64,000 bases of DNA from Branchiostoma lanceolatum. Taxonomy: Eukaryota; Chordata; Leptocardii; Amphioxiformes; Branchiostomatidae. Position numbers and translations under genes: made by a program. Under the pieces are notes generated by a model, which was not told the origin of the DNA, made no database searches, and saw nothing but the letters and a program-made list of their open reading frames with translations. Of this stretch, positions 12,549 to 61,000 are shown piece after piece (the stretch's first letter is position 1; each line of letters starts with the position of its first letter). The stretch spans positions 18,853,501-18,917,500 of the forward strand of contig NC_089726.1 in the NCBI RefSeq assembly GCF_035083965.1, written 5' to 3'.

Positions 12549-12564
12549 CCTCAGCCCTCCCCGT
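11544..12564 (-). CDS. F-box/WD40 gene, first recognised coding exon (N-terminal disordered region)
   Basis: The exon runs from acceptor ...TTGTGTTGCAG (exon base 12564) to donor ATGGAG|GTAAAC (exon end 11544). ATG is at 12548-12546. It encodes 335 aa rich in Ser, Pro and basic residues, with SP-type sites (SPSPKPRR, SPRSPSPR) and acidic-serine clusters (SECSSSSEGDLS) that look like kinase targets. It is markedly GC-richer than the flanking introns. It ends in GPEFKKRME, which leads into the dimerisation-like helix of the next exon. Confidence 0.85.
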
Positions 12565-15500
12565 CTGCAACACAAATCATAAAAATTAAGTCCCAATTTG
12601 CATAATTTGCAATTCATTGTGTACATCTCTGTCTAAGCTACCTGCATACATGTAGTAAATAACATGAAAATCTGTTGCTCCTTTCTCCAGTTATTCTCCT
12701 TGGAAGATTTTGACAAATACGCCATTGCAATTCCAGCGACACATACACCTACCCACATAGCAAATATCATTACAATCCATCCAGACGTTCTTCAGTTATG
12801 CTGACTTTATGCATCCGGACTCACAAACATACACGCATGCGAACACAAGCACACGCAAAACAATATCTAACAAAGTTTAACATTTTCACACATGTTACCG
12901 CATTCCTCAATGTCACTTAGTCTATAAACGACACAACTTTCCTTCCTAAAGAGTGAGCTTTAAGTAAATCTTTTATTGATCACTGCAACCAGAATAAAAC
13001 ATGAAGACTGAGATACATCAATATCACGTACAGCAGCAAAATATTGTAAACACTGCCAAGAATCAATGCCAGCACCAACATACCAACATAAACGGTCTAT
13101 ACATGCATATATATAAAGTATAGGGTATAGGGGATTGTTGTCCTGCAAGTCAGTGGTAAATAAGTGAGAGATTTCACACCGTAAAACACAAACAATCTTC
13201 AATCTACAACAGTGCAGAAAAAACATCATTGTTTGCAAAATAGCTACAATCAAATCAAATCTTGGTACAATATATGACTATCAAGATCCTGTATTAAAAT
13301 ATGACAAACACATGACATGCACATGTCATTTATACCCAAATCTTCAGGAATATCTCTGAAGAGATAGCCTGATAACTCTGTTAACCCTTTAAATACTAGC
13401 AATAACATCAAATCCTGTACAAAAATGATTTTGAAGTATCAAAATCTTCAGAATCATCTTTGAAGATTATTTAATTTATTGCCTAACTACCCAAAGGCCA
13501 GATATATAAGCCCTTATATTTACCAGCTGGATTCAAAAGCTGATAAAAAAAAGCATGGCAATCAAATTACCTGTTCAGAAAGAAAATTAAAGATACCTCA
13601 ATTATATCATGCCATCAATTTCCAGCAACGAATCAAACCCTAGGTCTTTCCTATTATAGCCGCTACACAAAAATGTGTACGCTAGATTGCTCCCAACTCA
13701 ACCACTTGCTGAAACCTCTCCAAATATGGTGTGGGGAGTGCCAGAAGTGCGGGCAACTTTATCCTCCTGCCAGTGAAAGTAGGTCACCTCTGCAGGGTGG
13801 AGCTTGAGTCTTGCCTTTCTAGCCTGACTAAATATTTAGCTTCTGGCAGCAGGCTCAACAAGAGTTCGGAGAGCTCATATCTCCATGAAATATTCTGTTT
13901 ATGCAAATGACTTTAAAATTTACATCTATGCTTGGTCATGAACACCTTTAACAAACTTACACATGTCGCAATATTTCAACAGTCCTATCCTTTACCATTA
14001 AATGATTTATCGCGCTTTTGCATTAATTATGCAAATTAGGAATTGATTTGCATAATTGGTACCGTGTTACTTGCATTTAAGTTTTATAATGGGAAACACT
14101 GCAAATATAGATTTTCATTATTGACTTTGAATTTCAGCTTTCCAACACCTACCCACATACCAAATATCACTGTAATCCATCAATAGGTTCTTGAGTTATG
14201 CTGACTACAGCAATCCGGAAACACACAACCTGTGTTACCGATTGCAACCATGGATTGATGTGTTAAAAAATTCATATTTTCCGAGAACCATAGTAGAATG
14301 GAACTTGTTATCACCGAGTACAGTAAGGAGCATCCTCACTAAATAGCTTTAAGAAACAGTTGGAGTCAGATGTGCGAAGGTAAGGTGTGACAGGCCGTTC
14401 AGTGTAATATAACCAGCTGCTTCCGCGCCGCGTGCCTGCGAAGCTGGTGTGTTACGCCAAAGGGCGGTTATACTGGCTATACAGAAACAAATACTTACAT
14501 GTACATGTACCTTGCACATGTAATAATATTGACATCGAAAATAAAGAGTTTGCAGTATCCATTGAGAATCGCATTTATTTACAATACCATGGATATGCCG
14601 CCGCCTGTGACGGAAAAAACTGCAAACGTACAAATTTAGAACCCTAAATACCGCGACTAGTACAAAATCTAATTAGTACTTACAAAACCTGGGGATCCTG
14701 GACTCTCGGTACGTTACTTTCCATTCAAATCAGAAATTCCGTAGAATAGAATGATGAATGTTTCAACATGTGTCAGTTATCCATATTAACTCCCAGTTGC
14801 ACTATTGGCACAGGGAGAATTGACTGTAAATGTATAATGCATGGAGGACTTAACAAGGATTCCCTCGTTGACTCTACGGACACTAAAAAATTCATAAGAC
14901 CGACTTGACCCTGTCAACCCTCTTGCAGAGCAAGTAAATTAAGGGATTGAGTCAACAGAGAGGGAAGACTGTAGCAACTTGTGCCCTTAGGGGTAGATAT
15001 GGGATCTAATTGCTAAAGTCAGTCAGGTAATTGATTTAAATTAGCTATAGGAGTAACCAACAAATTTGGCAGGCTGTTGATATGAATATCGTTCCACCAA
15101 GAGATAATTTGCATGCTGTCTTTTCGCCGTACCGCCAACAGAAGACGTGCACTGATTCCTTTTGATTCCGATCAGTGATTTTTGTGGAAGAGCTCTGATG
15201 GGGTTGTCAACTTCCAGGAAGGTTGTTGCCCAAGACAGGAAGATGATACTTATGTTGACAAAAATATCTTAATTCACACAGCCTTAAGCTTGATATCAAA
15301 AGTGTTTGACATTCCCAGTATTAAGGCCTATATAAGGACTAGACCTAAATTGTGGTTCAGGGGAGATCGAAGGCTTCATCCCAGCTTTAGACTCATCAAA
15401 TTAAAGCAGCAAGTCTTATTTTACTTCTTCCACGTAGCTATAGCACTCCGCTCAATTGGTACATGTAGCTCTGATGCATAATCATGCATACAGGTAGTCC

Positions 15501-24168: not shown

Positions 24169-25898
24169 CTGTGTAGTTGGAAAAAAAAGGAGAATTTAGT
24201 TAAGACTTTGGCTCTATGGCAATGCTTGCCAGGACTTGTTCACTCTTAAACCCTTGCAACAAGACTAAAAAATGTAGAAACAAAGTATGAAAACAGAGAA
24301 CCGATAGCTTTATCATCTATCTTCCGCCAAAGGGAAGTGGCATGTTAAGATTTTTTTTAGATATAAGACTTTGGAGCTTAAATCAAACTGGATCATGTGT
24401 ATAAGCCAGTTCACGGTTTAAACTGCACATGATTCTACATGTAGCAGCAAGATGGATTGTGCGTATAATGTCAGATGTCCCCGTTCAAGGGTCAAGGTCA
24501 AATGTGAAGGCCTCAAACTTGTTCTTGCCGTGATCATGCTTGATACTATGTCCCCAACAGTCCGGACGTTTTTACATGTATGTCTCAGGAAAGTAATCTC
24601 GAACCAGTTTAGTTTAAATGAACTCAATGAACAGATGAGCTAATATTCCACTGGTCGTGGCAGGAAGACAGACGCTATGTACAGTATTTACATGTTCATT
24701 GTACCAGGGAAATTCCCCTAGCTCTTTTCGACAAGCACAATGCATATGAACAGTGGGCCATGGCTTAACGTCCCGTCCTAAGGACTGCGACCTTTTCTGG
24801 TAGCTTGCATGTTGGTTGAGCGACACTGCCGGGATCGAACCCGGGGCTCCTAGTTCCAGAGGTAAGATCGCTAACCACTGACTACGCACGTTACGTCTCA
24901 GGGGCTTTCCACTTTGACATATAACCCACAACTTAAACCGTGAATCAGCTCATTAACAAGTGTACCTGAGCCCCAGCAAACACCTTACACTGAGACTAAC
25001 ATGACCTCTCACCCTTCACCTCTCACCTTCTTCTCTCGGCGTCAGCGGGGTCGGTGCCGGGTAGACTGATGGTGATGGAGGATGGGGCGCCCACGTCGTA
25101 CCTCTTCACCGTCTTCTTACACACCTTTATCTTCACCAGTCCGCTGTACACCGTGTTTGCCAGTATTGCGATTGGAGCCTGCACGGACTCGGGGAAGAAC
25201 GTTGCGAAGGTGAAAACGTCGCCCATGTCTCCCTTCCCTTGGTTCCCGTGCCGTTGGTAGAAGCGTAGGTAGATCCAGCTGGACAGGATGCCCATGCCGG
25301 TCATCACGGGGTATGTCCCCGTCGTAAGGGTCGCCACCTTGAGCAAGATGGACCCGACCAGTAGTAGGAGTGGTACGTGTTTGACGCGTAGGTCGACGGC
25401 TGGTACTAGCACCTGGTCGGGTCTCGTCTGCTTCAAAGCCACGCAGACCCCGGCTGCAAAGCCGGTCAGTCCGTATATGTGGACTTCGAAGATATACGTG
25501 TCATCCGACGTGGCCATGTACACGAAAAGATAGAAGAACGCAGAGAATATACCGGTTACTATGGTAACCAGAGTCAGGAAGATGAGGAGTTCTAGAGCGC
25601 CCCATATTGGTTCCAGCAGTTTTCCCGCCACCACAACTGCCGTTATACTGATCGCAACGTGGAGTATTTGTGTCTCCAGTAAACCATGAGTCAGCAGAGT
25701 CCAGACTCTGAAGGTGGAAGGGATGAGAAATCCCGGGTTTATGCTCAACGGTTCGACAAGTTCGACTCCCAGGGAAACTAGGTAGCTCAGACAGACGACA
25801 GCGCACACGGCTTTCACTACAACGCTCGTGTTTGTCAGCGTCGTGACGAAATGCTGCCGCGCCACCGGCAGGTATCGGTTCACAAGAGCGTTCGACAT
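23871..25898 (-). CDS. TMEM115: TMEM115, Golgi rhomboid-like membrane protein, two coding exons
   Basis: TMEM115 is a multi-pass Golgi protein of rhomboid-like fold without protease activity. In mammals it associates with the COG complex and affects Golgi-to-ER transport. Exons on minus: 25898-25027 (872 nt) and 24168-23871 (298 nt including TGA), joined in phase 2; 389 aa (human about 351). Hydrophobic segments include VVVKAVCAVVCLSYLVSLGV and VAISITAVVVAGKLLEPIWG; the family block GALELLIFLTLV is present. The strongest family signature is KTVKRYDVGAPSSITISLPG just before the splice, then RKKALQALNERLSKV. The tail is acidic then Pro/Ser/Asn-rich and longer than in human. A frame extending further 5' to 25943 lacks an ATG, so 25898 is the start. 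Confidence 0.94.
24400..24960. mobile_element. possible MITE carrying a nested, inverted SINE
   Basis: AGCCAGTTCACGGTTTAAAC at the left resembles the complement of ACTTAAACCGTGAATCAGCT at the right. Between them lies an inverted copy (about 24594-24892) of the SINE at 4424. It lies in the TMEM115 intron. Confidence 0.55.
25027..25898 (-). CDS. TMEM115: TMEM115 coding exon 1
   Basis: 290 codons plus 2 nt, donor GAAG|GTGAGA. Contains all the membrane segments and the KRYDVGAPSSITISLPGTDP signature. Confidence 0.94.
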
Positions 25899-25979
25899 GC
25901 TCCTTTCCTCAGGAATACCGTAAAACTCAAGCTGGACGCCCAAAATCGAAAGATTTCCGTCTAAAACATCAAATCTCGG

Positions 25980-28945: not shown

Positions 28946-29863
28946 TGCTAGATTGGAAAATCAACATGAAAACAGAATCTCAGAGGAAATTTTGTACTTT
29001 GGTGCACACAGTTTCCGGGAGTAAACGGGGTCAGGTGCAAGTTTTCACCCCAGCCTTCTGTTTTCATGATATCCTCGTGCTTGTTGTGATCCTCTAGATC
29101 TGTAATTGCATGGTAATGGTTTGAAATGGCATTCTGAAATAATGCAACTTGGAGCCAATCAGAGCTCTTGTGCATATTTTACGGAGATATATATAGATAA
29201 ATTGTGTTTCCCTTGAACATTTTCAGACTAGTCCGCAGGGAAGCAATGGGATTAAACTGGAGGTAGTATAGGATGGATAAGGTCTCATACCTGGATTAGT
29301 CCGCGTGTACACTCCCAAAGAATCCAGGCAAAAAAATAACAGGGCATAGAAGGCGTGTGTTTAGGTGGATCATAAAGTGCCTTTTATCAGCCCCTCCTGA
29401 TATAAAAAGAATTTGAGATGAAAGCTTGTTTATTTCTGTCAGCATTAGGTAGGAAAGTTTCGTCATCCGAGCGATAGGTCGGACATGTACGCATTTTAGC
29501 ATGAGTGCTGCGTTAAGGCGCTGGCGGTACAACAGCGGCCTCGTGCGGATAGTTGCTACTTGCAGTTTAAAATGCGATAAATATCGTTGTTACGGTTAGA
29601 TTTGGGCGAATCTTTTTTTATTGCATGATGAACACATGTGCTTCCAACAGAAAGTATGCATCTAATCTTCAGAACAGTTGTTCGTTTTCTAGATTTGCAG
29701 TCATAAAGTTGCATATTTTAACATTGATTCCAATGGGATAGCCTAATTGCCGTGTGAGACCTTAGAAGTATTGCTGCGATTGATTTTGTTGTTTAGATGA
29801 CTCTACTTTCCTTTCTTTGCAGGCAATACATAGCATAGAAGAACAACCACTTCAGAAAACAAC

Positions 29864-29961
29864 ATGGCGTCCGAGACCCCCCTCCCCAAGGGGTGGACCA
29901 AGAAGGTGGTTCTACGTCAATCCGGTGCCACAGCTGGCAAGACCGACACTTATTTCTACAG
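29864..29961 (+). CDS. MBD4: MBD4-type gene coding exon 1 (MBD, first half)
   Basis: ATG at 29864 after acceptor CTTTCTTTGCAG (exon from 29823). 32 codons plus 2 nt, donor TACAG|GTAAAC. The intron splits the MBD, as it does in vertebrate MBD4 and MECP2 genes. Confidence 0.93.
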
Positions 29962-32900
29962 GTAAACATTCTTGAGTTGCCGTAAATCTTTAAAGGAAAC
30001 CCAAGCAATATTAGGGCCCGAACTCTTTTAATTTTGAAATCTATCTTATTTATTTTGTCGTTTCTATACATGATTAGTTCAAACAACACTATCACAATGT
30101 ATAGCAATGTTCATGATGCAAAAATATGACGTTGTTGTGAGGTAAGAACTCACTGAAAATCATGGCCAGGGTTTTTGTAGGCTCACGAAACTAAGGGGAT
30201 CATCATATGGCACATTTTTACACGGTTTTAAAAATGCTCAAAGTATAAAGTTACTACACAAATGTGCTAATCAGTGTTAGTAAATGTCACTACCATAAAG
30301 ATTTCAGCATTATTTAATCAACATATTTTTGGCACTAATATTACTCTGGTTGCCTTTAAACTTTTGGGGCGATTTTGTTTTCGTGGTGACCTTTCCACTG
30401 CAAATGCATGACACTGCGAATTTCTAATTACTAGAGTATTCTTTCAACCGCAGATTTAAAACATGGCTAAAACCTCCTTTTTACTTCTATCGCAAGATAA
30501 ACCACTGCGAAAGTAAATCAATTTACAATATTTTGGCTGTCAATCACTTTTAGTGTAAAGTGAGTTAGGCGTGAGTCATTGCACACTGCCTAGTCACATG
30601 CATAATCCGATTAAAGGATTTTCAGGGTTCAATAGATAGGGGAATGCATGATGAATAGATTGCTAGATGTTGCTTTTCTGGAATTGTTTTGAAGTCTTTG
30701 ACAAGGGCAACAAGGGCAAATTTTTCTTCTATCAGTTCGAAAAAAGAGGAAAAACAGGAACTTGAGTAAAGGTCTTGGGAGATCTATTAGTAGTTAAATT
30801 AAATGATAGTTATTGATTAAATGATCAAATGTTCTAGCACTCCACTCTACACATTTGTTGTTCTTTATTGATACGAGCCTTATCTTTGTTTGATTTGGCA
30901 AGAAAGAAGAAATTAGTTGTGTCAGGCAAGAAAACCAAAGTATCCATAGTGAAATTTGGTGGATCAATAATTATATTGGAAAGACAGCTGATTTTCGAGT
31001 CTGGAAGTTCATTATAATTAATGTATTCTAATTGTACAAACTACAAATGAATAATGTTGTTTTTTTATTCAGTATTTAAGTCCTCTCTTTTATTTTTCAA
31101 CAGTCCTGAAGGGAAGAAGTTTCGATCCCGAACGGAGATCGCAAAGTTCTGCAAAGACAAGGGACTGAAGATAGACACTGATTCCTTCACATTTGGCGGA
31201 AAGGTGACGTCTTCAGCGAAGAAAGCCACGAAGGACACGCCTTCCACGTCCAGGGGCCGAGGCCGACCGCCAAAAGCAGCTGCAGCAAAGAAAGAAAAGG
31301 AACAAAAGACGCCCGGGAAGCTTGTGGTTAAGATGCGGTTTTCTACACCGCAGAAGAGGTCAAAGAGTTCTGGCAGCTCTTCCAAAGAACCGGCTGCAAA
31401 GAAGCCAAGGGGACGGCCACCAAAAACCAAGCAGGAAGTCAAGGTCAAGTTTCCAATGGGACCGAAGGCAGCCCAAAGCCCCAAAAAGGGCGCCAAGTCA
31501 AAGACCCCCGCAAAGAAGGAAAGAAAGGCGCCAGCAGTGAAGAAACCAGCCAAACCTGCAAAAGAGAAGAAATCGGCAGCAAAGAAGGCGGCAAAGGCAC
31601 CTCCCAAGACAAAGCCTCCCGCGAAAGCGGCACCGAAAACTACCGCACCGAAACCGCTCAAGAAACGGAAAGCTCCCGAAGAAACCGAGGCAGCTTCCCC
31701 GTCCAAGAAAGCGAAGAAGCCCGAGGCGACCGCGGGAGCTCCTTCCAAGTCTGAAACAGGTGAGTCCAGCCAACCTACTGAAGCAGATGTAGTTGTACTT
31801 GCAGATGATTTATCCAAGCAGTCAGAGAAATCGGAAGATGCCGCCGAACCCGAAATCATCTCAATCTCCGAGGCAGCATCAGGAGACGACAGAGAGATGT
31901 CCCCGCCCCGGGAGGGCATGAGTCCGGAAGAGATGATGCCCCCCGAGAGCGAAGAGGACGAAGACGAGGGTTTCGTTATCGTGGACATGAAGGATTGCGA
32001 AGAAGAGCCCGAAGTGGTGGCTGAAGTTCCGGCTGAAGCTCAACCATCAGAACCGCCCAGGTCAGGAAACATAGAGACACTGGTGTTCAGGCCCCTCAAT
32101 ACGCCCGAGAAAAGCCAGGGGGCGCCTCAACGAGCTACCGCCGGCCCGGTTCAACAGGAGAATGTAGCCGTGATCACGCCGCCGCCGGAGCCTGCAAGGG
32201 AAGCCAGCAACTCCGAGTCACGGGGTTCGTCCGAGTCGGGGAGCACCACTTATCTCCCCGAGATAATCGAGTGTCAGGCTCCGGCGACGGGACAAGCCCA
32301 AACCCTCCTACCGCCAGCCAACACGACAGGCCGTCTGCCGCTGTCCAGAACCCAAAGTTGGGGCTCGAACATCCCCGAGCCATCTGTCTCTCCGCTGCCA
32401 AGGAGTATCTCGCCCCTCACCGATAGGTCAGACAACGAGCCGGTCAGCGCGTTCGAACCCGTGTTCCCGCATGCGCCGGGAGTCGGCACCACCACCAGAG
32501 TGCTGGCGGAAAGCGGGAATATCTTCGAACGTCTGGCGCCGCCGCCGCCTCCTCCTGCTGACGTCGGTGTCTCCACCGAAGAATACCGCCGAAGCGCTTT
32601 CCAGCCCGTCGTCCCTCCGACCGTGGGACGGCAAGCGACCAACCACTGCACCATTCCTCCTCCAACCGGTGCGGGGAGTGCGTTTCAACCCGTGCTTCCC
32701 TCAGCGCCAGGGGCTACCACTAATGGTGACGGAGCGTCGGCCAGGGGTAGGGAGTTAGAAACAGTATCAAATAGTGACAGCGTCAGCTCTGCGGAGAAAA
32801 GTGAAGTTAGCCCCGCACAACCTTTAATGCCCCCATCCTACAGTTCGTAAAAACTGTAGCCAACATTTTACTGTTAACTAGGAAATTGAGAGCAATTACT

Positions 32901-35900
32901 GTAGTTGTAAACAACTAGCTTCAAGTAGGCAGCGTTTTAATGAAATCAACTTGCTGTGGCGGTGGCAAATTTTGTATCTACCTACATATTGGACATTGGA
33001 TTTGATGTACCAGTTGAGGAGTGTACAAAATGTTTGTTGTGGATAATAGTTTTTCGTCAAGAGGTAATTTGAAGTTTATTTTGAACCGATGAAAATATAT
33101 GCGTATGCCAACTAGATTACTTGCTTGCAGGAAAAATACGAAGTCGTAGTAGTAGTGGTCTTCACACATTTTGACAGCAATTTCATGATACTTCACTCTA
33201 GTATGGAGGTTTGAAATGGGGGAGGGGGTACATTGTTGGGTAGGTACATACACATTCTTCAGAATGTAGGTGGGTTTCTAACTTTCAGAGGGCAGTGCAG
33301 TCCCTACTACTGATATCATCATGTTATGATACTAGAAAATAGTCGAAAAGAGTATATTCAAGAATGGAGTGAAACAAGACCTCTTGTTGTAAAATGCTAC
33401 TGAAAATAGGCATTGCAACTGTTGCAATGATTTGAGAGCCCCTTAGATGACTTTTTTTTAAATAGAAATCTAAAATGTGAAATCATAGTCACCTAGAAAC
33501 TTCACCGTCAACTGGATGAAATCACATGTAGGCAGGTTTCAAATAACACAAAAACAGGAAACGACCAATGGTAGACTGGATACTAAGTGAGTGACAGGAT
33601 GCTTTTGTTTTATACCGACACCTTAATTTTTTTGTTTAGTTTGGCGTCTGTTTCAGGAAGACATTTTTAACAAAGGAATCTATTAATGCTGGTAAAATGT
33701 GAGGAAAGCTTGTAACTACAGCTGTGTTTTATTTATATTTCATTTGTGAGAAAGTAGCGTTAAAACCTGACATCAGGGACCTTTCAAAGAATGGGGTTGG
33801 CTGCGGTGTGGCCTTGGTAAAACGAAGGATATTTGGGGCCCCCCTTTTCCATTTTTCTCTAGAAATTAAATTGAGTCTATTGGAGCTATTTTTAATATTA
33901 AGTGGCGCTAATGTATGATTGAAATGTCTAGCAGCCGACTTACATGTAAATGTAATGGCTTAAAATGAAGTAGCCAATGGCTGGAAGAGGAGTAATCTAA
34001 TCAGTTACCATCGAAACACCAATGGCAGCCGCTGTCCTCTGTTCCATTGGAAACTTCCCTGTCAGAAAGGTATCTGCTTGAAACTACACTTGATGTAAAT
34101 GCTCTTCTAAAATATATCAGAGCAAACTTGGACTTTATTGGTAAGGTTGCAGAAACTTTCCCAGATAAATTCTGTACATAACTCAGAAAGATTTCTCTTT
34201 GGAGGCTTTGTTTTGACCGACGAACATCAATCGTTTAAACATTCCTTGTCAAAATTCGCTTTTTTTTCTCTCACAATTTTTTATGTTTGTAACAGTAGAG
34301 TAGAGAGATCACCATGTATGTTGCACTATCTTTAAAGAAATGTAATTTAAAAAATAACTGACGTGTATTTGTAGTGAAGTGATGACGACTTAGAGGTTAG
34401 TAGATGGCTCCGAGGGGCGTGTGCTTGTGTTACAGCATTTGAAAATTTGACAGTTGAACTGAATGAATTTGAATCTGATTTGATTGAAACTGTGTATCCA
34501 TACTACTAGCAAAGAATGTATAGGCAAGTATTTTATCTGTACATAGTCCAGAAATCCTATATATAACCCGACAATACTGCACCAGTCTTTAGCCTGTGAG
34601 TGAAAGAAACTTTTAGGTGCTGGAATGAAATAAATATTTCTGTAGCCCTACATGGACTTGTTTGTGCTTTCTCGCTTGATGCGCTTTTCGGCAGAAAAAA
34701 GTTTCGAAACTGAAAGGGAAATTCAATCAACAAGTTTTTCAGTGAATTCAATGCAAGTGATCAAGGTGTCTATATACATGTGTATCCCCTATAAACTCCT
34801 TGACAAGTACACCCCGACCAATCAACCTCTTTGAAACTCAGGTTCGAATCAGCCATGACCCGACAATTGCTTCCTAGTTTGACTAAATCTGTCAAAACAA
34901 ACTCGCCAGTGAGATGCTGGAAGGTGTCAGCTTTTAAAAGATGTTTTCAGATTGACAATTTTGGCACATTGGAAATGATAGAAGCTGACCGCGATTTAAC
35001 GTTTAGAAAAAAGAAGTGATCAAGAAACAATGTAAACTTGGTTGACCAAACCCAAGCATGCAAGGTTCCTAACTTTTTGTGCCAAATTTATGTGTCCATA
35101 TAAGGTCAGGTTTGTGGTTGTATGAGGACAAGTGGATCTTGTGGTTGTATGAGGAAAAGTGGAGCTTCTTACTGAATCAAATCATCATCATCATCATCAT
35201 CTTGAAAAAGGTCCAGTTTCCTTCAGTTTATAAGAGTCTTCATGCAACGTACCATCAACAGTCAAGGATATAACCATAAGAAAAGATGGTGTCCTCGGCC
35301 ATGTGTTTTTATTTCAAACTACTCTGCTATCGTGTCTGTGACTAGTTCTATCAGCTTAGTAAGTCACTGGATAACAAAGGTACACAGCCAAGTATTTTTA
35401 CATAGCCGAGATTTCAGTGACCGTCTGTCACCTTGCTCTGGGCAATACTGATTGGTTCTACTCTGCACTGCAGCTAGGTGTCGCTGCTGCAACATGAATA
35501 ATGCGGCCCAAAATGTCTATAAAGAGTTAACTTACAAACCAAACAATTTAACCCTTGACCAAGGAGGAGATTTAGCCAGCTAACCAAACCATTTTTTTGT
35601 TGCTTCTCCGAATCGCCTCTCCTGTTTTTCCCATTTTGAAAAAAAAATCCTCATATTCTTTATGTTATGTAAACCCTTATCTTCACCCCAGACTATTTGC
35701 AATTTTTTTTTTAACGCCCTGTCGCTCCAATTTTCCGACAATCAATAAATAGAATTGTTGTGGCCTTACGTTCAGGAAATGAGGCTTTATGTCAGGACTA
35801 GTAAAACCTGTCTTGGGCAACAACAAGATGAGGCGTTTTTACAAACATCCAATCATATATTAAAAATCAAAACAAAATTCACAACCCAAAACCATGGTGC

Positions 35901-38900
35901 CTTTCAGAGCCAGGAGTCAGTCCGTATTTCAGTGGAGACGCGGGTAACCTCCCTCCGCCCAAGGAAAAGTTTGCCGCGACCAAGTGGACGCCTCCGCGGT
36001 CGCCCTTCAACCTCGTTCAGGAACACCTTTTCCACGACCCCTGGAAACTGCTTGTGGCAACCATTTTCCTCCAGCGGACGACAGGTTGGTGTTCTTGTCG
36101 TTCTTAGAAAGCAGCGCTAACTGATGTTATTGGTTAATCCCTAACATTTATCACCTTAGATGTGGAATGGCATCTTATGATATATATTTCAATGGCCCCA
36201 TCATCTTGGAAGCCCAACATTTTTTACTAGAGGGGGGATTAGGGTATTCCAGTTTGAGCCAATGATACATGCATTCCTATGGGGAAGTTGACAGAAATTA
36301 GGTGTCATTATTTCAGGAACCAAAGATTCTGACCCAGAAAACTTACCCTCAAATTCTAACCTGTTCTGAAGACAGTCATCTAACAGAATTACGAGAACTT
36401 CTATATGGCTATTCTGCGGGGAAACACCCCTGAGCGAGAGCACTTGAGTCAGTCCATTTGCCTTATAAGGGCCCGTTCGCAACCATCCCACTATCTCCCG
36501 GGGGTCCAGAAGACAAAAAGATGGGGAAAGGTTGTTTTTGTCAACAAATTCTACAAGTATGAAGTCTATTATGTTATACCCACCCCAGAATTGCCAAGAT
36601 TTCACCAAAAATCCCACCAAGAAAGGCTTTCAATGTTTTAATGCCCTCTTTAATTCTGAGCTCTCTCATCCTGGGGTCTAGGCGCCTGAGCTAATACCCT
36701 CGTCCCCACTAGATACTGTACATACAGTAACGTTTCATGCATCATTCAAAGTATCATGCTTTCTTCTATCTTTTAATAGCCTTGTTTCGTGAGATTTGAC
36801 TTTAATTGGTATGAAATATTACAGATTTCTGGTCTAAAATTACCTTTATTGACTATACAATAAGAGGTGTAACAGCTTTAAGGACTCAACCCCCGGGGTG
36901 TTGCCAACAAAAATTTGCTTTACTGCCACAATGTGTCGAAATGAGGCTAATTTTCAATGTTTTTAGGCCAAGCAGCGATCCCGTTGATGTGGGAGTTTTT
37001 CCGTCGCTGGCCGTCACCGGAAGTGACGCGTGAGGCCGACTGGAAACCGATCTCTGAGCTCCTACAGCCACTGGGGCTGTACCAGAAACGCGCCAAAACC
37101 CTCATCAGATTCTCAGGTAGGGCAGGGCTCTGTACAGTTTGCACGGATTGTATAGCTTAGTTTTCTTCCACCGTGAAACGGGAGGTATTGTTTTAGCCTT
37201 TGTCCCTGTGTGTTTCCACACTCATTATCTCCTTGAAAAATGGAGATATTGTTTTTGGCGTGTCTGTGTGTCTGTCTGTCTGTCTGTCTTTGTTGTAGTG
37301 AGCAGAACTCAAGAACCTCTGGATGGATTACAATGATATTTGGTGTGTTGGTGGGTATTGGGGGGACAAAGGTCAAGGTCGATTTTGGGCCCCCTGGTAT
37401 GTGACCTTGGCACTGCAGCAGAAGTTCCGTTTCTCTATCTTTTGACCTGGACACGCTATGGTCTTGACATTTTGGTGGCAGATAGCTCGTTATGTAATGA
37501 AGAATTGGTGTAGGTTTGGACCCCCTAGTTTCTACATGCTAGGCACGTGGGGGACGCAAACAGGAAGTTAGGTCAGAGGTCCCAGAAAGGTCCGAGAATA
37601 GTTTATCAAAGATTATCTCATTTCCTATCTTCAATTTCCTGCTAAGTATGTGCATGTCTGTTTCCTTATTTTAGTCATTGGGAAAATGCATAAACAGGTC
37701 TGAGTCAGCAAGAAATCTATCCTGGAGTCCGAGAAAGAGACATGCAAACACACAGACGATGCTAACTTGAGCAAAGAACGATGCTAAAGGCACCCAGAGC
37801 ATTTTTTGAGGCTTGAAAACTGGAAATATTCTAGTTGTTGTAATCTTTATGAAATTGACATTTAATGCCACTGTTAACCACATTTGCGTGTGGATTTCTG
37901 ATCAAAAGTGCTCAAAAATGGCACAAAAATAAGCTACACTGTGATCTTTTAGTTTCACGTGCCTAGTGTAAATAGACCGATACCATAGCCCCGCCGACCT
38001 CCGTCAAAACTTAGAAATACAAAAGTAAAAAATAGAAATGCAAATATTTGACGGGCATGCAGTCACTCTCTCATTGGTCCAACCGCTAATTGTGATGGAC
38101 AGTCAAGATCAATCTATTGGGGCTTGGATTTTCTTACCACACAACGACATTGTATCTTTGCTCCTTTAATGTCGATATGTAATGGTATAGTGTTATTGAA
38201 ACTTACTATGCGTAGGAATGACTAGAAATTGGAGTTTTTTATTCAAGTTTCAAGCCTCATAAAATGCTCTGGATGCCTTTAAAAGAAAAGTTCACTCATT
38301 ATTCTAACATGATTGCAACAGTTGCAATAATGTTAGAATAACAGATGACTGTTTCCTAGTACAGGATCTGTTATTTGCTATCACTCACTATTACATGTAT
38401 GTTTTTCTTTGCTATTCTGTACAGATGAGTTCCTGACTAAAGACTGGACCTACCCAGATGAGCTTCACGGTATCGGCAAGTACGGCAACGACTCCTATCG
38501 CATCTTCTGTGTCAACGAGTGGAGACAGGTGAGTAAATGTAGTTTATCATAAGTAGCTTTTCAACGTTCACATTGAAGATTAGGACAATGCTCAAAGTCA
38601 GTTGTCTTCCTACTGTAACAGTGGGGATCAACCTCCACTAACTGACCAGTTTAACTGGTCCGGACCTCTTAGCCTAGTGGTTAGCGTGTTGAATTCCCAA
38701 GCCGTGCGGATCGGGATTGGTGCGGGTTCAAATCCCGGGAGCGGCGTACTCGCCCCTTTGGGTTTTTACACTACAGTTAAACCTTTTTTAAAGCACAAAT
38801 TGAGAAAAGTTGACTAAAATCATCCCACCCTTATTTTTACCTTCGCCGAGAAGGTTATGCAGAGGGTAGCGTTTGTCTGTCTGTTTGTTTGTCTGTTTGT

Positions 38901-40433
38901 AGTGGCACAGGATAACTCGAGAATGCCTAAATGGATTGTCTTGATATTTGGTATGTTGGTAGGTTTTGATGAGACCTAAAAACGATGAGATTTTGGGCCC
39001 CCTAGCGGCTTCTTACGGTACTGCAGCGGAACTTCCTGTTTTGATATCTCGTGTTCTGGACATGCTATGGAACTTATTTTTGAGTGGTAGATAGATCTTT
39101 GGACAGAGAGTAAGTGGTGTGGGTTTGGGCCCCCTAGCGGCTTTTTTGGAACTGCAGGAGCAGGTTTTGCGTCTGACTTTGAAAGGGAATAACTCAAGAA
39201 GGGCTTGATGGATGGTAATGATTTTTGGTAGGTAGATAGCTTGAGTGATGATGTACATGATTAGACACTTTTTATGCAAATCAGTATCTAATTTGCATAA
39301 TTAATGAGGAAAGTTTATACATCCGCCAAATTCCATGATAGGACTCTGAAACATGTGACATATGTAACTGGGGAAGAGAAAAATATTAATTGATATGAAC
39401 TATGCAAATGAAGACCTCATTTGCATAATTAATGAGAAAATACTATAACATGATGGCCTTGATGGATGGTCATGATTTTTGGTATGTGGATAGCTTTTGT
39501 GATGCTTAGTATGATTGGACGATAGTTATGCAAATCAGATTCTAATTTGCATAATTAATGAGGCAACTTTAAAAATCTGCTTTGTTCCATGATATGACAA
39601 TTCAAATTGTAACTGAGGAAGAGAGGACTGTTGATAGATAGAAAATATGCAAATGTGGGCCTTATTTGCATACTTAATGAGTTACTTCTATTATTCCACA
39701 CTGGCAAAAGACGGCAATTTCATACATTTAATCCTTTTTGGTGGCATCGGGACGTTATGTGAATGTGAACATCGTTGAATCAAATTATGCTAATAAGGGC
39801 CTCATTTGCATAATTGATGATAAATTTGTTCAGCTCATACTTTGGACATGTTATATTCTAAGACAATGAACTGGTATGATTTATGATTGATGAGAAACAC
39901 TCCTAATACGTCAGTCATAAAGGTTAAAATCATTTGGCGAAGGTATGAGGTCGTGGAACTCTAGTTCTTAATGTTCTGCTGTATGCAAAGAAAACAAAGC
40001 CAAGCCATGGAGAGTCTGGTCATTTTCAGACACCAAGACAACCACAAAACGCGTCAAAAACGTGGTGTTCTCTATGGGGTCTTTTCATAATGTTGCATGG
40101 TTCATCCTTAGCCGCTTTTTTGCCAAGTTGTTATGAATACATTGTATTAGATATGGACATTCCTTAGCTATTAGAACCATAAGAACTCTTATATTATGGT
40201 TGCCTGGATGATATCTTGGTTAGGTTTACATCTGCTCTGATAGTGGCTTCCAACACCATTTGGTGTATCAGGCAGTGCACATCTCTGGTTCCATAGCCCT
40301 GGGGCCACACAGCTGTACAAGCAAGACCTCATTCCCTTGTGACGTTTCTTTTCTCTAGGTGATGCCAAGTGACCACAAGTTAAACGACTACCATAACTGG
40401 CTATTGAAGAACCACAAGGAACTGGGGATATGA
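29864..40433 (+). CDS. MBD4: MBD4-type methyl-CpG-binding DNA glycosylase (spliced form), six coding exons
   Basis: MBD4 excises T or U from G mismatches at methylated CpG sites in the nucleus. Exons: 29864-29961, 31104-31759, 35908-36084, 36967-37116, 38425-38528, 40359-40433; 1260 nt, 419 aa, every junction in phase. MBD (residues about 5-66): [20 protein letters not shown] ... [16 protein letters not shown], with R18, D28 and R40 at the positions that contact methyl-CpG in this family. A Lys/Pro-rich linker with two AT-hook cores (RGRPPK, about 85-90 and 135-140) follows. The glycosylase domain (about 270-419) has [35 protein letters not shown], and the HhH/catalytic block [17 protein letters not shown] with catalytic Asp at D383 (human D560 equivalent). 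Human MBD4 is 580 aa; the linker here is shorter. A Harbinger-like MITE lies 25 bp past the stop. Confidence 0.92.
29992..30360. mobile_element. foldback MITE (AAAGGNAACCCAAGCAATATTAGGG family)
   Basis: Left TTTAAAGGAAACCCAAGCAA and right TAATATTACTCTGGTTGCCTTTAAA are inverted. It starts about 30 bases after the donor of coding exon 1. Confidence 0.65.
31104..31759 (+). CDS. MBD4: MBD4-type gene coding exon 2, spliced form (MBD second half, AT-hooks)
   Basis: Acceptor TATTTTTCAACAG; donor at an internal consensus site, TCTGAAACAG|GTGAGT, phase 1, which joins in phase to the glycosylase exon at 35908. Encodes the rest of the MBD, AT-hook SRGRGRPPK, the MeCP2-like [14 protein letters not shown] (31309-31350), a second AT-hook KKPRGRPPK and an H1-like Lys/Ala/Pro segment. 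Confidence 0.85.
31104..32850 (+). CDS. alternative long exon 2: MeCP2-like isoform ending at 32850
   Basis: If the donor at 31760 is not used, the frame stays open for another 364 codons to TAA 32848-32850. With exon 1 this gives a 614-aa protein with MBD, two AT-hooks and a basic region but no glycosylase. The extension is GC-rich and coding-like: acidic ([16 protein letters not shown]), then Ser/Pro-rich with three AF(E/Q)PV-type repeats (32449, 32596, 32680). The domain order resembles vertebrate MeCP2. Alternatively, weaker in-phase donors near the 3' end (for example GGG|GTAGGG near 32747) could splice most of this exon into a longer glycosylase form. Transcript data would decide. Confidence 0.7.
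32851..35907. other. intron of the MBD4-type gene / possible 3'UTR of the long isoform
   Basis: Three kb of AT-rich sequence with no supportable frame. AATAAA-type motifs occur (for example around 34628 and 35744) and could serve the long isoform. A 17-bp palindrome ATTGCAACTGTTGCAAT lies at 33412-33428. A reversed Harbinger-like MITE fragment occupies 35590-35765. Confidence 0.5.
35590..35765 (-). mobile_element. Harbinger-like MITE, internally deleted, reversed
   Basis: Complement of the interior and terminus of the 56345-56840 element (CCTTATCTTCACCCCAGACT, GCCCTGTCGCTCCAATTTT), ending GTTGTGGCC followed by TTA. Confidence 0.65.
35908..36084 (+). CDS. MBD4: MBD4-type gene coding exon 3 (glycosylase domain start)
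   Basis: 177 nt, phase 1/1, acceptor GGTGCCTTTCAG, donor GACGACAG|GTTGGT. Encodes [20 protein letters not shown], then [20 protein letters not shown] and [18 protein letters not shown]. Confidence 0.9.
36967..37116 (+). CDS. MBD4: MBD4-type gene coding exon 4
   Basis: 150 nt, phase 1/1, acceptor CAATGTTTTTAG, donor TTCTCAG|GTAGGG. Encodes [20 protein letters not shown] ... [20 protein letters not shown], glycosylase helices. Confidence 0.92.
37180..37480. mobile_element. fragment of the TACCTTCGCC-type repeat
   Basis: Contains GTCTGTCTGTCTGTC, GGATTACAATGATATTTGGT and GATTTTGGGCCCCCTGG, which are shared with 38838-39945 and, inverted, with 50030-50740. Confidence 0.5.
37786..38283. mobile_element. 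foldback MITE, about 500 bp
   Basis: Termini TAAAGGCACCCAGAGCATTT and AAATGCTCTGGATGCCTTTA are inverted for about 40 bp with few mismatches (continuing TGAGGCTTGAAA / TTTCAAGCCTCA). It lies in the intron before coding exon 5. Confidence 0.8.
38299..38341. repeat. near-perfect 43-bp palindrome
   Basis: Two 21-bp arms around a single base, one mismatch; the core is ATTGCAACAGTTGCAAT. It lies 84 bp upstream of coding exon 5. The same 17-bp core (centre base differing) occurs at 33412-33428 in the same gene. Confidence 0.85.
38425..38528 (+). CDS. MBD4: MBD4-type gene coding exon 5 (catalytic motif)
   Basis: 104 nt, phase 1/0, acceptor CTATTCTGTACAG, donor AGACAG|GTGAGT. Encodes [20 protein letters not shown] then [15 protein letters not shown], holding the helix-hairpin-helix and the catalytic Asp. 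Confidence 0.94.
38661..38835 (+). mobile_element. tRNA-derived SINE
   Basis: Head TTAGCCTAGTGGTTAGCGTG and box B GGTTCAAATCC (38725-38735), then CTCGCCCCTTTGGGTTTTTA. It lies in the last intron of the MBD4-type gene. Confidence 0.7.
38838..39945. mobile_element. 1.1-kb dispersed repeat with ACCTTCGCC ends
   Basis: Starts TACCTTCGCCGAGAAGGTTA and ends ATTTGGCGAAGGTA. The interior has several TATGCAAAT...ATTTGCATAATTAATGAG modules in tandem. An inverted relative spans about 50030-50740. No coding frame. Confidence 0.65.
40359..40433 (+). CDS. MBD4: MBD4-type gene last coding exon
   Basis: Acceptor TTTTCTCTAG, 24 codons plus [23 protein letters not shown] then ELGI, the expected C-terminus of the glycosylase domain. 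Confidence 0.94.
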   Translation: MMPSDHKLNDYHNWLLKNHKELGI

Positions 40434-40458
40434 TAGGGGCTATCCCACATACTTACTA

Positions 40459-40642
40459 GGCCACACCAATTTAATTTCTTGGTTAACGGATTTTTATTTT
40501 CAAAAAAAAAAAAATTTTAGAAAAAAAATAAATCATGAAAACAGAAGGCTGGCCCAGCCTTCTGTTTTCATAAAAAAAATTTTTCTAAAATTTTTTTTGG
40601 AAAATAAATTTCTGTTAACCAAGAAATTAAATTGGTGTGGCC
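40459..40642. mobile_element. Harbinger-like MITE, 184 bp, in the MBD4-type 3'UTR
   Basis: GGCCACACCAATTTAATTTC and its complement as termini, with a perfect GAAAACAGAAGGCTGG / CCAGCCTTCTGTTTTC centre. The whole element can fold into a hairpin. It starts 25 bp after the stop codon. Confidence 0.85.
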
Positions 40643-40978
40643 TTAGTGAACTGATTTTAAAGATACACATGTACATGGTTAGTTTGGTGCATAGGTAACA
40701 TACTGAAATTAAAATGTTTGAGGAAGCCAACCAACAAATCTTCACAAACACCTTTTGTTTCCAGTTGCCTTTAACATCATCGGTACATACGTGGAGTTCA
40801 CCTTTAATTTTTCATTATTTTTGTACTTACTGTATCCTCGGTTATGTCTTTCATTAGGTTTCTGGTCTGGCCATTATAAAAGTTTCAGACTTAAATACGG
40901 TGTACAAAGTCAAGCATGAACCATGTCAAATGTTACATAGGCAGAAGCCTATTACTGTGCCGTTTTGAAATGCTTCAC

Positions 40979-58000: not shown

Positions 58001-61000
58001 CGGCTGACAGTGTAGCTCAATACGTGTTAAGTGGAGCATGTGTATCACTGAATGGTCAATTGGGCACTGTTTGAAGATCACAAGTGACTATGTCGTTACT
58101 GTTTGCACTCCGCCATTTTGCTTTGTTGCGTCCCCAATTAAAACTCTCTTAAAAGCTCATTAGCGAAAAAAATCATTATCCTGTATACAGAGGAAAAAGT
58201 GCAAAAGAGTTAAAATGTTGTGTCGTGTGTGCTATAATTAGCGCAGAGTGATCCGTCATTTTGACAGGTGGGAAAATGTGCTGTTGTCCTACACACTATG
58301 GACTGGCTGTTTGCCTCGTCTTTTCATGACTTAATTGGTTTCCGTGGTTGTTATTGGTCTAACAAAATAACGAGACAAAAGAAACACGAACGAATGAGTC
58401 AATTGATATCAGTGCACGGGAGGGCTCGGTTAGTTGTACAAGACGTATAACCCGGCCGCCCGTTTGAAAACGTTCAGAGCTCGATTTCGATGTAACGGCT
58501 CTTTCTATACACTGTCAGCTACATGTTGTCGTGGGGTACAACAAAAGGCAAATGTTATAGTTCCAATCGCTGATATATATTCGTCATGTTCATTATCAGG
58601 AGCTATCGTGATGGTGAGGGCGGAGACGGGACAGTCCTCAGACCCCCAAGGTGAGTCCGGCTTCTGTTTGCAACTGGTGATAACTTATCACACCAATGGT
58701 ACAACTGGTGATAACTTATCACACCAATGGTACAACTGGTGATAACTTATCACACCAATAGTACAACTGGTGATAACTTATCACACCAATAGTACAACTG
58801 GTGAAAACTTATCACACCAATAGTACAACTGGTGAAAACTTATCACACCGATAGTACAACTGGTGACAACAGTTTCACCAAATGACAGTCGCTCAAGCAA
58901 CTGGATACAATTTTCAAAACAGCCAGACGTTTCAGACAGCCTTTGCTGTCTTTCGTCAGTGACTAAAGAGAAACTTTTATCCAGTTGCTTGAGTAACTGT
59001 AATTTTGGCGTATCTTATTACCTGTTTGTCTAACCTTCATCAACGTACTGTAAATGCATTTAAGTTCGTGTGGTTGTTATTTCGCGCTAAGGCGAAAATG
59101 GAGTGTTCGCGGTGGTTTTAAGTTTGCGGCAGCGCTATAGTCACGTACTGCTACAGTATTGTTAGAAAAATGTAACAAATATGTTAGCGGTGGTTTTAAG
59201 TTCGCGGTGAAACGGTCGCCGGGAAAACCGCCAGAATAAACCCACCGCGAACATTTATGCATTTACAGTATATCTACAGTTATGTGGTAAATTTTGCACT
59301 AATTTGTATGTATGTAATGCTATGAAGTCATTCTGATACATGCTGTTAAGTTGCTTTATATTGACCGGGGCTACAATTTCAATGGTATATTGTGAAATGA
59401 AGATTTTAAAAACACGCAATATTAAAAATAATTATCATCTTCCATATCATTTCAGACAAATTGTGGTAGTGGTCCCATCCGTGGCACTGGAGTCCCCGCG
59501 GAAAACAGTGAAGCAAACACAACTAGTCATGGTGGACAACAAGGCCGACGAGAAGGCACCGGCCTTGGTAAGTTGGTTTATTGGCGCGGTGTGTGGTTGT
59601 CTCTGGTACAAGGGAGAAATACTGTACGATATGTAGCGGGGAGTAATCTCCAAGCAGATCTACACGGTGCAAACAATCGTATATGCAAGCAAGGGAAGCT
59701 CCAATCAGCCATAGAAGCTCCAGACCGCACCGTAGGATTGGCATCAAGACTGAGCTTATCTGGCTGACTGGAGCCTCTCTGGCTAGCAAATACGATTTTT
59801 GGCACCGTGTAGATCTGCTTGGAGATCAGCGGGGGTGGGGGGAGGCGGTCGTTTGGGAGGAGGGCCTCTGCATCTGGAGGAGGGCCTAGGAATTTTTGTT
59901 GGCCTAGCCTGTGTTCACGCCATCTCTCGCTGGCGGAAGTTAATGACCCCCGGTAACCGTACGCGTCAGGCCGGCCTCTAGGAGTGCAGGCCAGGGGAGG
60001 GCCTAGGGAAAAATGGCCGGGAATTTTAAAAAAAATCTCCTTCAGAACCTTCAAACACATAGCTATAGCTAAATGTCTGAATTATTGTTATAGTTGTCTA
60101 CTGTATATTTGTGTTCCAGTCTGTGTGACTTTACAGGTTAACAAAGTTTCATGTGCACACAACCAATGCTTTTCACCTGCCGACATCACGGTAGGCGGTC
60201 TGCCGCTTTCATCAATGTACTGTCTGGTTCTACTTAGCCCTACAGCTAGGTGTCGCTGCAGTGCGAAGGCTGCGGTCCTAAACGTGACTTTGCTTGTATC
60301 CCCCCCCCCCATATCATTGTCTTTGGCGACGCCTCAGGGGCGAGCCTGATGGTATTTATATTGTGTGCAGTTTGCAAAAAATCTAGTTGGCGACTCCTCA
60401 GGGGCGAGCCTAATGGTATTTATATTGTGTGCAGTTTGCAAGAATTCTAGGAATTGTACAGGAATGTCAAAGTCCACGGGACGATAACTCAAGAATGTCT
60501 GGATGGATAGTCTTCATATTTGGTAGGTGGGTAGGTCTTTGGGAGACCTTGAAATAATTGGGGTCGTTTTTGGTGTGATTGTACTGTTTGAACGAGACGT
60601 AATATCAACGTGTGTTCTCCCATGCAGCCGCCGCAGAATGAGACCTTTGGCCGGCTGACTGGCAAGTACCTGACCCGGCGGCCGTCCCAGGAGCACAGGG
60701 CCGGCCACTTCAACAACTTCCGGCAGTACCTGAAGCGCAGCAAGTCCCGCAAGGCGGCGCCTTTTGCACCTGCTCCTTCTGCCTCCACGCAGGACAGGAA
60801 GATACTGAACGTCAGCGGCAGCAAGAACATCCCGACGTTACCCGTCATTCCCTCCATCAGATCGGACGACGAGATCAAAACGGTCATGAGTGAAAACGGG
60901 GTCGTTTTGAACGGAGACTTTCCCGCCAATTTGTCGGGCGTCTCCTCCGAAGACACTTCGAGTTCGATACGGTCCGAGTTGGGAAAAGTCTTCTCAAATT

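Follow-up and report, generated by a model that had tools for sequence, protein, structure and literature searches.

Can a single gene hold the DNA-binding half of a MeCP2-like reader together with the glycosylase half of MBD4, and leave the choice between the two to splicing? This question is raised by a gene on the plus strand of a 64-kb window (the whole stretch of DNA analyzed here, from contig NC_089726.1) of the amphioxus Branchiostoma lanceolatum; all coordinates below are positions in this window. We propose that this MBD4/MeCP2-type gene probably does combine, in one frame, a DNA-binding half resembling MeCP2, the Rett syndrome protein, and an MBD4 glycosylase half. Its second exon is likely to be a composite terminal exon: splicing out of it would yield repair enzymes, and reading through it would yield a reader devoid of the glycosylase.

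One gene with at least three possible products

The frame opens in coding exon 1 (29864-29961; 98 coding bases), which supplies the start codon and the first half of the methyl-CpG-binding domain (MBD), and is joined in frame by a GT-AG intron to exon 2. The portion of exon 2 common to all forms (31104-31759) encodes the second half of the MBD, the AT-hooks, the MeCP2-like block and a basic linker. The glycosylase region starts in exon 3 (35908-36084), continues through exons 4 (36967-37116) and 5 (38425-38528), and ends in exon 6 (40359-40433) with the DHKLN stretch and the stop codon; all four exons are supported by their frame joints and by likeness to MBD4 in PDB. Exon 2 itself has at least three possible fates: (i) ending at 31759, at donor 1 (CAG/GTGAGT, 31760-31765), it joins the other exons in an open frame of 419 amino acids, with every intron GT-AG; (ii) unspliced (31104-32850), it continues into a proline-rich and acidic tail (31760-32847) and, with exon 1, gives an open frame of 614 amino acids; (iii) ending at 32746, at the in-phase donor 2 (GGG/GTAGGG, 32747-32752), it gives 748 amino acids with both tail and glycosylase. 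The third form is counted because the NCBI model for B. lanceolatum uses this second donor, the protein P0002 being matched letter for letter. The stretch 32747-32850, with its stop codon at 32848-32850, is the read-through-only end of the 614-residue form.

Pfam detects both the MBD (PF01429; E 4.6e-16) and the HhH-GPD domain (E 6.6e-8) over their cut-offs in the 419-residue form, whereas the MBD is the sole domain over its cut-off in the 614-residue form; the AT_hook model stays under its cut-off in both. Freedom from a glycosylase, as in MeCP2, is found in the 614-residue frame only, and because the spliced forms carry one we do not file the gene as MeCP2. Among the GT sites between 31110 and 32900, scored with a vertebrate donor matrix, donor 1 ranks top (12.5), level with the best donor of the gene; the runner-up (7.5) is out of phase, and donor 2 scores 5.8.

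Predicted proteins from related species bear on these alternatives. In Branchiostoma belcheri, the record P0004, "MeCP2-like isoform X1", is the unspliced form with the same stop, and P0005, "MBD4-like isoform X2", uses the homologue of donor 1, diverging at KSEKT where X1 continues with GESSQPTE; the NCBI names of these predictions thus already pair a "MeCP2-like" with an "MBD4-like" isoform. After donor 1, between linker and glycosylase, X2 has an extra repetitive alanine/threonine/acidic stretch of the AETDPAA type, for which tblastn found no match in the window (compare 31760-35907). Neither the B. lanceolatum record seen at NCBI nor that of Branchiostoma floridae uses donor 1, and the annotated joint of the latter lies about 13 residues beyond donor 2. 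Overall, the predicted protein records cover three forms over three species, no single species showing all three. Every form on record is a prediction, and further isoforms may be hidden because four of the records each stand for a cluster of 2 to 6 member sequences.

A preliminary description of this stretch had proposed donor 1 in phase with the glycosylase exons, a 419-residue spliced and a 614-residue unspliced frame, and a GC-rich, coding-like continuation to 32850. These proposals hold: both frames are open, and their Pfam domains agree. Its limitation to two forms does not, as it overlooked donor 2, and the tail also fits inside a glycosylase-bearing protein. Its idea of one gene with two splice-chosen ends survives in part: P0005 and P0004 end with and without the glycosylase, but the choice is not a two-way one, because the sole NCBI model seen for B. 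lanceolatum is the third form with tail and glycosylase.

Conservation of the tail and its read-through end

The tail has a GC content of 0.60, compared with 0.37 downstream of the stop codon and 0.38 for the intron; of 5000 sequences generated by a first-order Markov model of the tail, not one stays open throughout. The tail is also conserved between related species at the protein level, down to its last residues and stop. The lack of conservation that the preliminary description would have counted against its reading is not observed at this level. Up to donor 2 it is identical to B. floridae at 297 of 329 positions and to B. belcheri X1 at 280 of 329; for comparison, identity to X1 is 64/68 in the MBD and 151/183 in the linker, and 145 of 168 glycosylase residues are identical to X2. 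Past donor 2, 29 of 34 residues are identical to X1, and the position of the stop is the same. Most telling are the final ~21 residues, which end in [L/I]MPPSYSS and are identical to B. belcheri at 20 of 21 aligned positions. They lie beyond every joint annotated in the records seen, since that of B. floridae falls only ~13 residues past donor 2, and would be intron in the spliced forms. Of all the observations made here, their conservation, seen at the protein level against the single predicted record P0004, speaks most strongly for translation of the unspliced form. Judging from these comparisons, the open frame of the unspliced form is not due to chance alone.

Two further features of the tail were observed. 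The motif SAF[EQ]PVxP occurs in three copies (32446-32700), which are preserved across B. lanceolatum, B. floridae and B. belcheri X1. Nearer its beginning (31789-31986), hydrophobic runs (VVVL, IISIS, FVIVD) adjoin acidic residues and are kept in P0002, P0003 and P0004; we take these stretches to resemble SUMO-interacting motifs.

A MeCP2-like linker common to all forms

The MBD is followed, in order, by an AT-hook core RGRPP at residue 85 (31258-31272), the KLVVKMRF block at residues 105-112 (31318-31341), a second RGRPP core at residue 135 (31408-31422) and PLKKRK at residues 217-222 (31654-31671). The hooks and PLKKRK were located by motif scans, and the block by a pattern scan of the alignment A2 described below, with shuffles. 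The block resembles KLLVKMPF of MeCP2. For the alignments with the MeCP2 linker and C-terminus, shuffle tests gave the chance level. The amphioxus linker (residues 69-251) aligns with MeCP2 residues ~163 to 330 at a score of 138, against a shuffle mean of 80.8 (sd 10.2), and none of 1000 shuffles scores as high. The linkers of five vertebrate MBD4 proteins are at chance in the same comparison (119, 309, 382, 482 and 491 of 500 shuffles as high), and those of Asterias, Diadema and Lingula give borderline values, with 16, 18 and 16 of 500 shuffles, respectively, scoring as high. The tail is likewise borderline against the MeCP2 linker (12/300 shuffles as high). The amphioxus linker, accordingly, has the AT-hook cores and the block that characterize the MeCP2 linker, and the tail shows no likeness to the C-terminal domain of MeCP2. 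The domains are evident from the sequence; we judge the linkers to be disordered.

The preliminary description had noted a MeCP2-matching block just after the MBD; it lies at residues 102-115, and the match is indeed beyond chance. The same account had put its stress on the unspliced form, and here it must be corrected, as the likeness lies before donor 1 and the tail shows none to the C-terminus of MeCP2. By motif and alignment, the likeness is confined to the portion shared by all forms, namely the MBD, the two AT-hooks with the block between them, and PLKKRK. These features precede donor 1; therefore the repair forms carry them too.

PLKKRK resembles the PIKKRK of the NCoR-interaction domain (NID) of MeCP2, an NCoR/TBLR1-binding motif present in the peptide of PDB 5naf, and may be only a nuclear localization signal. 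Rett missense changes in the NID affect P302, K304, K305 and R306 (PMC7859524). The pattern P[ILV]KKRK, sought after the fact, appears in 46 of 50000 shuffles of the amphioxus linker. PDB searches with the PLKKRK stretch and with the MeCP2 linker returned no match.

Distribution of the block across animals

The alignment A2 comprises 123 proteins, namely 120 listed of 755 glycosylase matches together with P0004, P0006 and P0007; some are incomplete, a crude MBD pattern being present in 109/123 and a glycosylase pattern in 118/123. The block, as [KR]L[LVI]VK[MILV]xF, occurs in seven rows: four from Branchiostoma, and one each from the starfish Asterias amurensis (P0007), the sea urchin Diadema setosum (P0021) and the brachiopod Lingula anatina (P0027). 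It is found in neither P0006 nor the 115 other A2 rows (96 vertebrate-named, 19 unnamed). Shuffles of the seven block-bearing proteins produce it 0 to 2 times in 20000, and by this measure the match to MeCP2 is more than chance. Of the 123 rows, only the four from Branchiostoma have the two strict AT-hooks and P[ILV]KKRK; a looser pattern adds one AT-hook-like site, in Asterias. A literature search for the letters of the block found nothing.

The glycosylase is present in P0021 (502 amino acids) and P0027. P0007, of 430 amino acids and either an isoform, the product of a second gene or an incomplete model, has the MBD without a glycosylase, which suggests that glycosylase-free forms may not be confined to amphioxus. 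We read the block as a probable old bilaterian part of the gene, which MeCP2 has retained and the sampled vertebrate MBD4 proteins have lost. With the block residing in MBD4-type proteins of amphioxus, urchin and brachiopod, one gene therefore holds parts that vertebrates split between MeCP2 and MBD4.

The MBD intron and the glycosylase

Within the MBD, codon 33 is interrupted by an intron following its second base. This intron is, as far as is known, common to the MBD1-4 family and so does not single out MeCP2. S33 aligns gap-free with N126 of MeCP2. The Rett allele c.378-2A>G places a MECP2 intron between c.377 and c.378 (PMC9570315). There it interrupts codon 126, again following the second base, so that position and phase agree with those in amphioxus. 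Along the domain, 29 of 64 positions are identical, and amphioxus R18, Y30 and R40 align without gaps with R111, Y123 and R133 of MeCP2, presumably its mCpG-contact residues.

The glycosylase half matches the MBD4 chains in PDB at E 5.4e-76, and it is because of this match that we regard the gene as an ortholog of MBD4. The HhH-GPD domain is of the MBD4 type and is present in the spliced forms, not in the 614-residue form. The glycosylase forms contain DHKLN, whose Asp we take to be the catalytic residue, and 114 of the 115 other A2 rows contain DHxLN. Kinship with MeCP2 is proposed on account of the linker likeness together with a published group tree (PMC8330077).

Proposed mechanism and its alternatives

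We envisage the following. With U1 bound at either of the two donors, exon 2 would be joined to the glycosylase exons at 35908. A read-through mRNA would instead be cleaved inside the intron, for example past the candidate poly(A) signal AATAAA at 34629-34634 on the plus strand (known from sequence only; the interval 32851-36000 has three other AATAAA/ATTAAA), and its translation would stop at 32850 without a catalytic domain. The glycosylase-free protein might then bind methyl-CpG and recruit partners as MeCP2 does, and the glycosylase forms would repair T:G mismatches at methylated CpG. Because all forms retain the MBD and the linker, the former would compete with the latter for methyl-CpG. 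Duplication of such a gene could have given rise to the vertebrate pair; the glycosylase exons would then have been lost from MECP2, which retained the linker, and the linker block from MBD4, which retained the glycosylase. A bolder and tentative scenario, which may well prove wrong, is that vertebrate MeCP2 and MBD4 each represent one output of a single ancestral gene, separated when that gene was duplicated; the large last coding exon of MECP2 would derive from the read-through form, with its composite terminal exon, that amphioxus still encodes, and MBD4 from the spliced form, so that the Rett-syndrome reader would have begun as a splice choice of a repair gene.

Several observations weigh against the proposal of a dual-output gene with MeCP2 kinship. 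The sole B. lanceolatum record seen takes donor 2, and neither donor 1 nor the read-through. The candidate poly(A) signal at 34629 is followed by 32 T+G in 50 bases, no better than the 31/50 at 33865. The tail is at chance against the MeCP2 C-terminus (760/1000 shuffles as high), and PLKKRK and PIKKRK are not aligned with each other in the linker alignment. The MBD scores highest with MBD2 (55.9 bits), ahead of the MeCP2 chain 8ajr (49.4) and MBD4 (44.9), and in a tree of 67 MBD columns and 18 rows amphioxus is placed beside MBD1/2/3 at 84/87; a forced clade of amphioxus with MBD4/MeCP2 is not rejected on these data (p-AU 0.10). By itself, the MBD places the gene with neither MeCP2 nor MBD4.

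Some of these points would fit a gene that makes only long glycosylase proteins, with the tail internal to a 748-residue MBD4 produced via donor 2 and the unspliced form being a functionless intron retention or an incomplete gene model. The NCBI models of B. lanceolatum and B. floridae both fuse the tail to the glycosylase, this explanation accounts equally well for the conservation of the tail before donor 2, and all the recorded forms are, as noted, predictions. However, the stretch past donor 2, which would be intron in such a gene, retains its 29/34 identity to B. belcheri and the same stop, and X1 is recorded with precisely that end, even if conserved splicing signals could mimic part of the conservation; we hold this explanation to be rather unlikely. 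Others of the points would suit a genuine glycosylase-free form whose likeness to MeCP2 is convergent, a lysine-rich AT-hook linker having been gained in the amphioxus line, in which case the gene would be silent on the origin of MeCP2. The restriction of the paired strict AT-hooks and PLKKRK to Branchiostoma, the position of amphioxus away from MeCP2 in the MBD tree, the dissimilar C-termini and the marginal resemblance of the Asterias, Diadema and Lingula linkers to that of MeCP2 all accord with this. Nevertheless, convergence seems to us quite improbable: the KL[LV]VK[MI]xF block is common to Asterias, Diadema and Lingula and arises at most twice per 20000 shuffles, and the published tree groups vertebrate Mbd4 with MeCP2 (PMC8330077). 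A gene whose splicing yields both repair enzymes and a glycosylase-free reader is the account that we favor.

Genomic neighborhood

Synteny was used as a test of the pre-duplication state by comparing with Pfam 20 open reading frames (ORFs), hand-picked among the 262 left after filtering by GC and CpG content. Only two of the 20 have matches (DUF1751/rhomboid and F-box-like), neither being a known neighbor of MECP2 or MBD4. The DUF1751 ORF (25026-25979, minus strand; E 1.5e-23), presumably TMEM115-like, is the nearest named upstream neighbor, and the F-box-like ORF lies at 8948-9247 on the minus strand (E 2.3e-7). Two open frames have no Pfam match at E 0.01, one of 522 codons on the plus strand (60592-62157; GC 0.55) and one of 382 codons on the minus strand (11487-12632). 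A nested palindrome lies 25 bases past the glycosylase stop (40458-40643). It has arms of 53 nt that are 92% complementary, and inner arms of 45 nt, and resembles a short inverted-repeat transposon within the 3' UTR; an exact second copy of its core, CCCAGCCTTCTGTTTTCAT, is at 29049-29067. The last intron contains several ATTTGCATAATTAATGAG-like repeats, seen by eye, at 39260-39840.

Relation to published work and to known proteins

The origin of MeCP2 has reportedly been placed at the vertebrate genome duplications by de Mendoza et al. in 2021, a study which may already discuss lancelet isoforms. An amphioxus MBD4 was reported by Albalat in 2008 (as cited in PMC3757391), and a joint MBD4/MeCP2 gene group is already published, vertebrate Mbd4 and MeCP2 being grouped with invertebrate Mbd4 (PMC8330077). 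Invertebrates have also been said to have a single MBD protein, MBD2/3 (PMC5240623); the present gene and the grouping of PMC8330077 speak against this. Among the papers listed by our literature searches on MBD4/MeCP2 in amphioxus or sea urchin and on related subjects (for one of them, 15 of 482), none deals with glycosylase-free forms of this gene, although a prior description is possible. What appears to be new here is the homology of the linker and the way it is distributed, together with the third form and the conservation of the read-through end.

In the literature, MeCP2 and MBD4 are linked by a tree of the Mbd protein group (PMC8330077); here a living gene unites the linker with the glycosylase, and may show what the ancestor of vertebrate MeCP2 and MBD4 looked like. 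If this is true: (i) a laboratory chordate can be used to test where MeCP2 came from; (ii) the gene offers a clean example of alternative ends being divided between duplicates; (iii) the block kept across three phyla flags a part of MeCP2 whose role deserves asking.

Set against the known proteins, the spliced amphioxus forms share with vertebrate MBD4, a methyl-CpG-binding thymine/uracil glycosylase, the combination of MBD and HhH-GPD glycosylase, most of the listed vertebrate rows being 64-70% identical to the B. belcheri glycosylase. They differ from it in the linker: the 115 other A2 rows have no block, strict AT-hooks or P[ILV]KKRK, and the five vertebrate linkers tested are without MeCP2 likeness. 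With vertebrate MeCP2 the gene shares the succession of MBD, AT-hook, KLxVKMxF block and AT-hook, as well as the codon and phase at which an intron splits the MBD; it differs in the C-terminus, which is unlike the amphioxus tail, and in the unaligned PIKKRK/PLKKRK. MeCP2 is not known to have a glycosylase. The echinoderm proteins P0007 and P0021 resemble the amphioxus forms in having the MBD with a KLLVKINF block, accompanied by the glycosylase in Diadema and not in Asterias, and depart from them in having neither the two strict AT-hooks nor P[ILV]KKRK. The closest counterparts are X1 and X2 of B. belcheri (P0004 and P0005), products of the orthologous gene with the same two ends, set apart by the additional repetitive stretch that X2 carries after donor 1.

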